A stretch of DNA of 64,000 nt from Siphlonurus alternatus (Eukaryota > Arthropoda > Insecta > Ephemeroptera > Siphlonuridae): contig OX463778.1 in NCBI GenBank assembly GCA_949825025.1, positions 39,509,194 to 39,573,193 of the forward strand, read 5' to 3'. The stretch's first letter is position 1, and each line of letters starts with the position of its first letter. Shown here piece after piece: positions 20,226 through 64,000 of this stretch. A program made the position numbers and the translations under genes. The notes under the pieces were generated by a model. It worked only from the letters and a program-made list of their open reading frames with translations, made no database searches and was not told where the DNA came from.

Positions 20226-23200
20226 ATGGCTAATATCAGAGGCAAAAATGTGTATGAAGAAACATTGAAAAAGTTTTGTAACCTTGGACTCGGTCACAGA
20301 AAAGGTATTTTTCTTAATATCTAAGTTTTTAGGCACTGTAGCCATCTCTGACCAAAAGGGGGTGTGAGCTGATCGAGCTGAAACGGCCGAAAGGAAAGGA
20401 CAGTATTTTATGCATATTATTTATTATGCATAAATATACACAAACCTTATAAATATATTTATTAAATTTCCTGGCTATAATATTTTTAGCGGAGTGGTTA
20501 CTATGTGTGTGAATCATTTTATAGGTCCTGCTCATTTTGGGGTAAAAAAATTTAAGTTTTCATTATGCTGCTTATAAAGATTAAAATAGCAGTATGTACA
20601 CACATTACATACATACACCACTGCTTGCGGCTATTGTGGGTATTCCACCACGGTGGCTCGCTTGCTTGCGGCTGACTCTCTCAGCCCCTCCCTGAACTCA
20701 CCAACACTCCGAGCATCCACAAGCCCAGAGTCCAACAAATTCCACTCCCTCACCGTTCTTCTCAAAAAGGAATACTTGCCCACATCATTTTTGCTTCTCC
20801 TATACTCCAGCTTCCAATCATGGTCCCTCCTACCTTTATAACGCCCTTCCTCAGTACGATCGCTAAGCTCCTCCCAGCCCTTTTGGTTCCTAGTTATTTT
20901 ATACATTGTTGTCAGTCTACTTTGCTTCCTCCTTTCCTCCAGATCCTCCCATCCCAGTTGCTCTATCATTCTGGTCACACTCTCTCTTCCCTTATAAATT
21001 TTGCTTTTATCACAGGTAAAGCTCCAGTTCCCCTTTTCTAGAACCCTTCTTGCTGCTCGTCTTTGTATCTTTTCCATCTCTTTCTTTCCTTTTGCTCTAT
21101 ACGGGTCCCACGCATTACATCCATATTCCATTATTGGTCTAATCAGAGACTTGTATGCTTTTTCTCTTACTGTCCTGCCTGCCCCCTTAAGATTCCTCAT
21201 TACAAACTCAAGATTCCTTCTGCTCTTTGCGGTTACATACCTAATATGTTCATCCCAATTAAGTTTGCACTGAAGCATTACTCCCAGATATTTGTATTTG
21301 TCCTCTGATTTGATTTCTTCCCTCTCCATAAAATATTTAACCTGACTTTGCTCCCTTCTTTTGTTGAACTTAACCACACTACATTTTCCAACATTAAGCT
21401 TCATTTTATTAGCTCCTATCCATATACCCACTGTCTCCAGATCCTTTTGTAGAATTTGCTCATCCTGCTTATTACTTACTGTCCTATAGATTACGCTGTC
21501 ATCAGCAAAAAGCCTCATCTCCGACTCCAAATTCTGTACAATATCATTAATAAAAATAATAAAAAATAGCCGCCCTAGCACACTACCCTGAGGGACTCCG
21601 GAAGTAACCTTCACTACCTCAGACAACGTTTGCCCTAGCTTGACTCATATTTTTTTTTAATCTTTATTTAGCTTTTGCTATTTAAATACATAATAGTTGT
21701 AGTTACATATTAATTAATTGATTTTACAACAACATATAAAAATTTGGTTCATAATTTTTTATGCCTACAGAACGAACCAATATATTAAAACAGAAATAGC
21801 AAAATACCAATTAACATATGAGATAGTTTTACAAATAATTACTTACACAATGAATATATAATTAACTGCTACAGGGAAATCTTTCCTTCACATATATAAT
21901 ACATAGCCTTTTAAACATTTTTTTATTGTGACATATTTTTATATTATCTGGTAGTTCATTGAACAATTTTTTTCCACAGTTATAAATTGATCCATCTGAT
22001 CCTTGTTTATTGAAACATTTTCTGAAAAAATTGTTACATCCTCTTGTATTATAAGTATGCATTTCACTATTTTTAATAATTTCACTTTAAAAATGCTTAG
22101 GAAATTTATCATGAATAATACCATAAAAAAATAACAGTACTTTTAATGCATATCTTTGTTTTACACTCAACCATTGCAGAGTTTCCAACAACAATTTAGT
22201 ATGAGTTCTTTTATTACAACCCAATATGTAATTTTCATCGCTCTGTTTTGAAGTCTTTGTAATAATTTGATACAGTATTTCTTTTGCTCGTGTTAAAAAA
22301 CAAAGATGCACAGTATTCAAAATGAGGAGCAATTATAGTTTTATATACCAAATTTTTACACCAAACGCTCAGGAAGCCTGAGATTCTACTTAAATACCCA
22401 ATTTTTTTACCAATTTTTTTTGACATAGACTCAATATGATCATTAAAATTTAATGTACTATCAAGAACTATACCAAGGTATTTAACATTTTTTTCAAACT
22501 TCAGTAACTCTCCATCAAGGTTGATCGTTGAGTTGGGATTACTATTTACAATATTATTTATCTTACGATTAGAACTTGCAAGTAGCATTCTGGGTTGCTT
22601 ACATTTTAAAGCTATTATCCCATGCAAGCTTCCAAGTCTGTATTGTATACATAATACATACATGCTACTGTATTTACTGTATGCATACAACTGTATAAAG
22701 GCGTTTTCAATGCTTTCACAACATCATGTATACATACACTGTACAATCATACTGTATCATACTGTATGCATAATATTCTAAAATTGCTACACGGTATGCC
22801 GTAGAAAAATCATGGTGGAACTTGATTTTTAAAGGCAGAAGTTGTTGGAGCGGAGAGTTATGAGTTGTTTAAGAGGGTTTTGAGACAAGCAAACCCTTCG
22901 CGAGCCACCGTGGCGTAGCCACATTTGCCGCGTTAATTTTATTATTATTATTACACTGCGGCGGTTCTACGGAGCTCCGTATCGGACCGTATCACGCCCT
23001 AGCTAGCAATTTTAGAGTATGATATGCATACAGTATGCGAAATAAAATAAATAAAATTAATAAATAAAGCACCTTTATGGGGATATTATAATATAAAGGT
23101 ATTGGCTGCAGCATCAATAAATATAAATATGATGAAAAACGCATTAATTGACAGTTTATTTATTAAGCTACAAATATGTTACTATACTGGTATACAGTAT

Positions 23201-62200: not shown

Positions 62201-64000
62201 GCACAATCAAAGTAAGCACAGCATACAAAAATCTTTTGTTTGCGGCACAATTTTGAGTATGTTTTGGTATAATAAAATTAGAGACGCAATTTGAGATCTT
62301 GATACGGCATTAACTATAAATATACTTTGAATATTATTTGATAATATATATATATTATATTTGTTGTGAAAAATGGCGTTACTAACTTCCTTCTTTAATA
62401 CGACGCGCGTGACGTCAGACAAACGACAGAAAAACAGACTTTATAAACAAAGTCAACTTCCCCTCCCGCGTCGGTCACCCGCCCCTCTCCACTTACAAGG
62501 GGGTATTTCGTCCGGGGGTATTTCGTCCGGGGGTATTTCGTCCGGGGGTATTTCGTCCGGGGGTATTTCGTCCGGTCCGGGCGGGGATATTTCGTCCGGG
62601 GGTATTTCGTCCGGGGGTATTTGGTCCGTGATTCCTCTCGCTGTCCTCCTGATAAAAGAATACTTTCCCACATCATTGTTGCTTCCCTGATACTCGAGCT
62701 TCCACTCATGGTCCCTTCTCCCCAAATATCTCCACCTTTCCACTCATCTCCTCCCAACCCTTAGCGTTCCTTGAGATCTTGTATCATACATTGTCGTCAA
62801 TCTGATTTGCCTCCTCCAGTATGCATACATATTATATTATACAGTATGATATAGACTCATTATGGTATATGATTCCGTATATGTATACTGTTGTTCAGTA
62901 CGTATGTGCTGTCAAGGTGTTGCTCTAAAATTGCTACGAAATCTCGTCGTTGCTGATTTTCTTGTGGTAAATCTTTTATTATTTTTCTATGGATTGGTAG
63001 CAGCAAAAATGCCATGCATATGTGAAAGCTACCGGCATTTCTACGGAGTTCCATAACAATTTTAGTTAGGTGAAAGCACCCAACTACTTGGTATATGCAT
63101 ACTGTATGCATATAGCTAAAAATGTAGCTACCAACTCCTATATAGTACATATACAAAAGTAAAAAATGTCCATATTTTGCTTGCAGCAGCAAATTGAAGA
63201 AGAGTCAGAATCAGATAAACTTCCCAGTGGAGAAGAAGCTCCTGCGGCAGCAGATGAGATCCCAGCATCTGAAACAAATGGCACGGGACCCACCACAGCA
63301 GAAGGTATACATAAACAAATCTTTGAATAAGCTCGGAAGTAACATCAGTTTTGCTCATTTCTGCTTCCGATTATGGGATAAGAGATGGGACAAGAAGCAC
63401 GTAGCAGGAAAATTAAATTGCAGCTTTCAAGGGCTTCCTTATTCCTATCTACTGGAACCAATGCCTTGACATACACTAATGTAATTTTATGCTACATTGT
63501 ACACCTATTTACAATTTTTTTGCAAAACTCGTAGCAGTTCAATACTTGTAGGAGCTAGGTCCGTGACGGTAAAGAGTTTCCTGTTACTCATGATGGTTAA
63601 CCTTTGATATTGTTAGTGAGTAAATTTATCTCGTTTCTGTGCTTTTCTAAAAAAATGCAGAAAATATAGGAGCAGTCAACTCGTTAACAGTATTAAAGCT
63701 TACCTCAATGTGAGTGACAGGTTACTTCTCATTGTGATTGATCTAATAATATTTTTAAACTAATAAACATTTCATTTAGAAAATCTGATAAAATATTTTA
63801 TACAGTATTTCTAACTGAACATTATAATTAGTACTGTACTTACAAAAAATAACAGGTTTTGTAAAAATTTATAAATTATGAAAATATCTGTGATCTACCA
63901 TATTTTGACACATTGTTACATTATATTGACAGAGGGGGCTGAAGGTGGGGAAGAGGAGGCTGAGGCTGCGGCGGCGGGAGGAGAGGATGCAGAGGAGGGG
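59248..64000 (+). CDS. FIP1L1: FIP1-like pre-mRNA polyadenylation factor, 5' part (continues beyond window)
   Basis: Exons seen: 59248-59412, 63187-63304 and 63933 onward (open at the window edge). The translation starts MADDSTNEDSWLYGDSNPEP and continues with PVHEIIERSAEQVQ. Exon 2 gives QQIEEESESDKLPSGEEAP..., and exon 3 an acidic Glu/Ala/Gly run. FIP1 is the CPSF subunit that binds poly(A) polymerase and U-rich RNA near poly(A) sites; its N-terminus is a poorly conserved acidic region beginning with a WLYG box, as here. The diagnostic FIP1 motif would lie downstream, so the name rests on the WLYG start and acidic composition. Phases join correctly (0, then 1). The ATG at 59248 is preferred over one at 59176 because the upstream residues are not acidic or family-like. 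Intron 1 contains the foldback element. Confidence 0.62.
59714..59845 (-). mobile_element. LINE-A 3' fragment, left piece (split by the foldback element)
   Basis: It carries the LINE-A 3' hairpin (minus strand GCCATAGTGGTGTAACCAC) and the end of the coding region down to CTCCACTCTCTCGCTG. LINE homology then jumps to 62,635, showing that the 2.8-kb element landed inside it. Confidence 0.75.
59862..59996. repeat. 15-bp minisatellite, left arm of the foldback element
   Basis: Nine CCCCCGGACGAAATA-type units with two CCCC variants and one compound spacer after the third. In one frame it reads (Arg-Thr-Lys-Tyr-Pro)n, which is not a protein. Confidence 0.93.
60530..61860. repeat. Inner long inverted repeat nested inside the foldback element
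   Basis: About 60,716-60,955 is matched in reverse complement by about 61,640-61,855: CCCCGACGAGAA/TTCTCGTCGGGG, CTAGAAGTGCTCAAA/TTTGAGCACTTCTAG and AATTGGAAATTGTGCCGTAT with its complement. On the left side the GAGCAAAGCCCGA/GACGAGAAG module is repeated about three times at roughly 80-bp spacing (60,570-60,780). It may be a second element that inserted inside the first, or the inner half of a layered one. Confidence 0.75.
61137..61210. repeat. (AAAT)n microsatellite
   Basis: About 11 AAAT units followed by ATATAAAT variants, in the unpaired centre of the foldback element. Confidence 0.95.
62509..62623. repeat. 15-bp minisatellite, right arm of the foldback element
   Basis: Eight inverted copies of the left-arm unit (GGGGGTATTTCGTCC), with the same spacer three units from the outer end. 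Confidence 0.93.
62635..62815 (-). mobile_element. LINE-A 3' fragment, right piece
   Basis: It resumes LINE-A homology directly after the 9-bp duplication (TCCTCCTGATAAAAGAATAC, compare 20,758 and 57,500). It continues about 170 bp to CTTGCCTCC-like sequence near 62,815, where it is truncated and followed by TATGCATACAT-type AT-rich DNA. Confidence 0.75.
62816..63186. other. 3' part of FIP1 intron 1
   Basis: AT-rich with TACAGTA (about 62,839) and TACTGTA (about 63,102) words and a weak short inverted repeat around 62,925-63,050. No gene or recognised element. It ends with TTGCAG before exon 2. Confidence 0.5.

Follow-up and report, generated by a model that had tools for sequence, protein, structure and literature searches.

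Occurrence of the heptamers in the window

The stretch considered here, called the window, is the whole 64,000 nucleotides from positions 39,509,194 to 39,573,193 of the forward strand of contig OX463778.1 (assembly GCA_949825025.1) of the mayfly Siphlonurus alternatus. It carries a satellite array, an apparent pair of gamma-tubulin complex component genes, coding stretches of DNAJC10, two inverted copies of a retrotransposon-like repeat and a member of a palindromic family of miniature inverted-repeat transposable elements (MITEs). Scattered among these outside the satellite are the heptamer TACAGTA and its complement TACTGTA, the subject of this work, which are candidate footprints of transposon excision. 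By exact count there are 53 of them, with the first start at 22,271 and the last at 63,832 (a span of 22271..63838). Read on the + strand, 27 are TACAGTA (22271, 23029, 23193, 23228, 23595, 27576, 28346, 32695, 34582, 38097, 45504, 45537, 46936, 47495, 47772, 47871, 47892, 48933, 49413, 49502, 50618, 55303, 56589, 59642, 59690, 62840 and 63801) and 26 are TACTGTA (22666, 22675, 22750, 22760, 23319, 23527, 28196, 28240, 30832, 32521, 33049, 38210, 46182, 47034, 47094, 47099, 47110, 47115, 48039, 49390, 50667, 52536, 55501, 59617, 63100 and 63832), whilst the satellite array has neither word, even allowing one mismatch.

An earlier note on this DNA had claimed over-representation outside the satellite, and this holds, with 53 found against the 7-13 expected under Markov orders 1-3, global or local. 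Its count by eye of 55-60 was slightly high, one word (22,271) precedes the start of 22660 that it gave, and its example positions are off by no more than about 10-20 bases (for 22,740 read 22,750/22,760). For 21,901-64,000 the expectation is 7.1, 10.9 and 11.4 words at orders 1, 2 and 3, and simulation in local 4.4-kb blocks at the same orders (60 runs each) gives means of 7.4, 12.2 and 13.3 with maxima of 15, 20 and 23. Orders 4 and 5 expect 23.9 and 41.5, both being fitted on the heptamer's own 5- and 6-mers. TACAGTA is first by count among 420 composition-matched heptamers and stands 7th, 8th and 5th by z among all heptamers at orders 1, 2 and 3, those with a higher z being runs of A or of AT, or words from the tandem repeat CGGACGAAATACCCC. 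Among the TA-NNN-TA words its z is 12.7, with the runner-up at 3.5, and hits within 200 bp of each other collapse into 26 clusters, where simulation at orders 2-3 gives 11-12.

In the 44 kb of the window outside the satellite the density is 1.2 heptamers per kb. None lies inside the ten main DNAJC10 coding matches, the one gene checked; these stretches (47617-54783) have their best matches in mayfly proteins (Neocloeon, Cloeon, Ephemera) at about 41-86% identity per stretch.

Genome-wide counts

The assembly searched (G000; 455,680,777 bases, 102 contigs) contains 220,184 copies of TACAGTA on both strands against 100,888 of the reversed-word control, a density of 0.48 per kb; a whole-genome count at expectation, which the earlier note named as a refutation of its claim, was thus not found. 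In a sample of twenty 10-kb stretches of contig C1 (the C1 sample) there are 119 heptamers, 0.6 per kb, where 31-41 are expected. The genome-wide excess is about 120,000-130,000 words, depending on whether 100,888 or about 92,500 (the order-2 expectation of the C1 sample scaled to the genome) is subtracted, and amounts to about 0.3% per TA on the basis of roughly 44 million TA, scaled from the window. The genome-wide count is inflated because tandem arrays carry the word; in one of them (C1:417037-434617, period 2,910 bp) each unit has at least two TACAGTA.

It had also been said that the words are often chained. In the window this is not confirmed, a TA being shared between heptamers in just two pairs, both at 47094..47121 within one 16-bp tandem duplication. 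Genome-wide the chained 12-mer TACAGTACAGTA is in excess, present 2,742 times against 240 for its reversed control, an 11 times difference. The flanking base is A at 58% of the window's heptamers against 32% of other TAC (P 1e-7), and at 45% against 34% in the C1 sample (P 3e-4), a preference that would fit an AT-rich palindromic target such as that of the element ZB.

Five-base gains between repeat copies

Some of the heptamers demonstrably arose by a gain of 5 bp at a TA, as seen between paralogous copies. The clearest case is the repeat of the window, which resembles a retrotransposon 3' end with a short TAA-type tail and whose alignment places the left copy at 42471..42964 (- strand) and the right copy, 98.4% identical, at 48842..49342 (+ strand). 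These two inverted copies differ by TA versus TACTGTA, which is the sole 5-bp indel, by one single-nucleotide difference and by a two-base indel in a run of A. The empty TA is at 42872..42873 (- strand) and the scarred state, TACAGTA on the + strand, at 48933..48939; no other gain in the window is directly visible as a difference of 5 bp. The open reading frame (ORF) shared by the copies is shifted in the right copy because of this gain; homologues of the ORF, sought to prove the polarity of the gain, gave no match at E 0.01.

Repeat pairs of the window and loci L001-L028 give 175 alignments (at least 80% identity and 120 bp, both directions counted, 46.6 kb), which hold nine five-base gains, one of them TACAGTA. 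A search centred on the heptamers themselves, with L040-L046 added, finds 11 within alignable repeats, of which three are clean gains (window 48933, L003:242 and L012:2586). The latter two are in a dispersed palindromic MITE, and none of the 10 further rows of the alignment (9 elements) has the gain at that column. The partners of L003:242 read TT, AT or GT at the gain site, therefore the ancestor must have turned TA before the gain, and the gain at L012:2586 is accompanied by a 1-bp loss in the adjoining T run.

Short gains are also seen in the last satellite monomers (19454-19830), where there are three, of 7, 4 and 5 bp, one of them being TATTATA in place of TA at 19826..19832 (+ strand), possibly a second class of gain.

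Fixed TA sites of a palindromic MITE

The palindromic MITE in which the gains at L003:242 and L012:2586 occur is about 300 bp long (L020:7790-8125; window member 33495..33834, without assigned strand) and has 35,530 arms genome-wide within three mismatches, and this family was used for a genome-wide test at fixed TA sites. At the first, site A, a TA-NNN-TA query gives 67 matches, with both TAs kept in 18; the cores of these are CAG (5), CTG (2), TTA (4), TAA (3), CAA (2), AAA (1) and ATT (1), so that CAG or CTG (CWG) makes up 7 of the 18. The remaining 49 matches include three CAG, two TAA and one TAT at the neighbouring site. The others among them are different 5-bp variants, including two recurrent types that have the look of inherited subfamilies. 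At a second TA, site B, there are 76 matches, partly from the same copies, and both TAs are kept in 21, with cores of CTG (5), CAG (4), TAA (3), TTA (2) and seven singletons (CWG 9/21).

Taken together, the 39 TA-NNN-TA gains of both sites comprise CAG 9, CTG 7, TTA 6, TAA 6 and 11 others. The core that equals an element end, with either central base (C-A/T-G), is thus the outcome in 16 of 39, where 1.2 would be expected (2/64; P 1.6e-14, valid if the gains are independent), and as CAG and CTG are both present at both sites there must have been at least four events. The TTA and TAA gains (12/39) are AT-rich, some of them differing by one mismatch at most from a tandem duplication of 5 bp, and possibly represent a second scar class. 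As observations in their own right, L018:4392-5045 and L025:4713-5081 are TA-flanked candidate sources of such a class; the TTAAGGG family, tried as another source, has no consistent TA flank and was rejected.

Proposed mechanism

A mechanism that would yield these words is as follows. A cut-and-paste element that targets TA and has CAG...CTG ends, of the Tc1/mariner type and probably in most cases a MITE, would insert at a TA and duplicate it. Its later excision would involve staggered cutting, three bases in from either end, and end-joining would then leave TA-C(A/T)G-TA, with the central A/T mismatch resolved either way, and each excision event would add 5 bp. Gains of 5 bp at a TA that yield TA-NNN-TA are found in the window repeat, in MITE copies and at sites A and B, with the empty and scarred states of one site seen between paralogues. 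It is likely, in our judgement, that Tc1/mariner-type excision footprints, unusually abundant, produce the TACAGTA/TACTGTA words, as the earlier note had suggested; the gains between paralogues, the first place of CAG/CTG among the TA-NNN-TA gains at two MITE sites and the resident CAGT-ended MITEs favour this. No transposase with CAGT ends was found among the loci read. Excision, rather than partial insertion, appears to have made the 5-bp gains, a Tc1/mariner-class transposase would have done the excising, and much of the excess would be due to the scars. It is far less probable that scars make up nearly all of it.

Several results weigh against the footprint explanation. Eight of the 11 heptamers in alignable repeats are not clean gains: two (L012:1096 and L043:824) are ends that belong to one element family, two are a single site common to L040 and L041, and for four a substitution or a change of 1 bp is the better explanation. 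At the MITE sites 23 of the 39 gains are not CWG, 12 of these being TTA or TAA, and some of the scarred copies may descend from a single source copy that already had the scar. The rate of scars there is 16 in 71,060 arm-sites (0.02%), which falls short of the genome-wide excess per TA by a factor of about 13. The MITE may be young or offer a poor target context, there may be hot spots elsewhere, or some of the excess may have another origin than scars. In the C1 sample the enrichment of TATAATA (394 against 203) is as strong as that of TACAGTA (119 against 41). Finally, nine animal loci with transposase domains (seven DDE_3, two DDE_1) were read, and the best pairs of terminal inverted repeats (TIRs) printed for them include no CAGT pair that encloses the ORF.

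A further proposal, which is tentative and rather doubtful, is that in this lineage the elements excise so often, compared with the copies retained, that scars in the germline outnumber resident CAGT-ended elements many times. The excess, of the order of 100,000 words, would in that case be a record of insertions most of which have vanished, perhaps with a TTA/TAA scar class in addition. If the footprint explanation is right, the history of germline excision could be read from a single assembly, since fixed TA sites in high-copy repeats would allow the spectrum and rate of footprints to be counted with no laboratory assay. Excision against retention could be estimated even for elements that leave no copies. 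One repair outcome of a transposon would measurably shift the word composition of a genome, and the scars would add 5-bp frameshifting indels and make new TA targets.

Comparison with known systems

Pogo/Tigger-type elements target TA and have a TIR that begins with CAGT (pogo TIR start CAGTATAA), a likeness for which the literature search gave no confirming paper, but the two DDE_1 loci read here (L048 and L049) are without a CAGT TIR pair among those printed. Sleeping Beauty, of the inverted repeat/direct repeat (IR/DR) subgroup of Tc1 elements, has long TIRs with inner direct repeats; the resident MITE at L025, described below, is a 173-bp palindrome. Sleeping Beauty shares the TA target and the same words, TACAGTA and TACTGTA being given as its two consensus footprints (PMC4378557). 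It is described as cutting three bases inside its ends, with non-homologous end joining keeping the 3-nt overhangs as identical footprints (PMC7827188). The difference is that here the footprints, of a putative element and transposase, would be natural and dense in the germline genome of a mayfly. The related ZB is reported to leave 0-3 bp and to prefer AT-rich palindromes (PMC7913693).

Excision of plant Stowaway and Mariner-like MITEs is alike in that it is reported to leave a small duplication together with short element-end sequences (PMC4561436). In a rice survey of all DNA transposons, 8 of 94 excisions are given as leaving exactly the duplicated target (PMC4423477), in contrast to the mayfly, in which one clean type of footprint is the commonest among the TA-NNN-TA gains at sites A and B. 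The titles and abstract openings searched included none that deals with an enrichment of these words across a genome, which is no proof of absence.

Resident elements and alternative explanations

Elements with matching CAG...CTG ends between TA duplications are resident in the same genome. At L025:1100-1272 there is a palindromic 173-bp MITE with CAGTA ends, a TIR match of 24/24 and TA flanks, and at L012:1098-1629 a 532-bp element, also CAGTA-ended and TA-flanked, with a TIR match of 22/24. Ends of the L025 family (TACAGTATAACAGATCTTAG) number 3,720 genome-wide within 3 mismatches against 53 for the reversed sequence, and by eye 22 inward pairs among 100 places listed are exactly 177 bp long; with many pairs exactly equal in length, the family was probably active recently. 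The element of a source transposase would end in CAGTATAACAGATC or CAGTAAAATCTTG.

The presence of these two elements in the C1 sample, and of the word in tandem arrays as noted above, might suggest that the heptamers are not scars but the ends of resident elements, TA followed by a TIR that starts CAGTA. This is an improbable reading. Continuation into the TIR of a known element, tested for two TIR families, was not found to be the source of the words, with only 5 of 221 heptamers (4/119 in the C1 stretches alone) running into the recognised TIRs and the others scoring like 207 control words; this set is biased, L001-L008 having been fetched for carrying the chained word, and other TIR families may have been missed. 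The 3,720 ends are just 1.7% of the 220,184 words, and no CAGT-ended TIR pair was found within the window, where the fold-back MITEs end otherwise. At L003:1506 a relative of the L025 family begins in the TA of a pre-existing TACAGTA.

A slightly poorer explanation is that the words reflect a generic word bias or the decay of simple repeats in an AT-rich genome, without any transposon. TACGTA and TATAATA are likewise in excess, and the heptamers gather in TA-rich cryptic repeats (e.g. 47094-47121 and 59579-59696). The same is true of TATGCATA, an alternating purine-pyrimidine word seen 19 times against 2 expected in 21.9-64 kb and 27 against 11 in 200 kb; it occurs at 21 places in the window (20409-63112), often beside TACTGTA. 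A general bias is hard to reconcile with an excess that survives Markov orders 1-3 and local models, with one-mismatch neighbours that in the window total 1.3 times expectation against 7.2 times for the word itself, and with the clean 5-bp gains observed at TA. For mouse over 300,000 such sites are reported (PMC4378557), which would be about 0.11 per kb if the genome size is 2.7 Gb, against 0.48 per kb here.

The weakest explanation, a separate short insertion process that adds 5 bp at TA, for instance by templated end-joining at breaks, could draw on the want of a transposase tied to the scars, on the majority of gains that are not CWG and on the 28 of 67 site-A matches that, read from the list, are the AT-rich recurrent types AATTTTATT and AATAAAATT or close variants, but it is very improbable given that CAG and CTG with both central bases are what 3-nt CAG ends predict, that such elements are resident and that the CWG gains are at least two mismatches from any 5-bp tandem duplication of site A.

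Search for the transposase

The genome gives 30 matches to DDE_3 and 6 to DDE_1, and as the candidates at first look were few (40 and 7) the enzyme behind the proposed footprints may have been missed. Contig C44 (2063-72972) holds 13 of the 30 DDE_3 matches, several with an identical score and 12 of the 13 strongest there; this small contig may belong to a bacterial associate or a contaminant. Three candidate sources of CAGT ends were rejected. In the DDE_3 locus L043 an L012-family end lies 18 bp before the ORF frame, but the element points away. Two ends of the 173-bp MITE family bound an interval of 4.7 kb that was considered as a possible autonomous element; it consists of nested insertions without a recognised transposase ORF. 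The L003/L029 element, 468 bp long, has TG and not TA as its right flank and a best end match of 20/30.

Other features of the window

An element (window 59851-62628, and L047) has inverted ends that bear the 15-bp tandem repeat CGGACGAAATACCCC, and at C1:29.065 Mb a relative lies within a CAGT-ended MITE. A search for the satellite word in viral contigs gave 0 matches, and no plasmid records resembling the gamma-tubulin complex component (GCP) gene were found. Judged by eye from similar ORFs, there appear to be two tandem copies of this gene, at 24978-30108 and 35495-39904, with Pfam GCP domains at 26481-26957 and 39536-39904.

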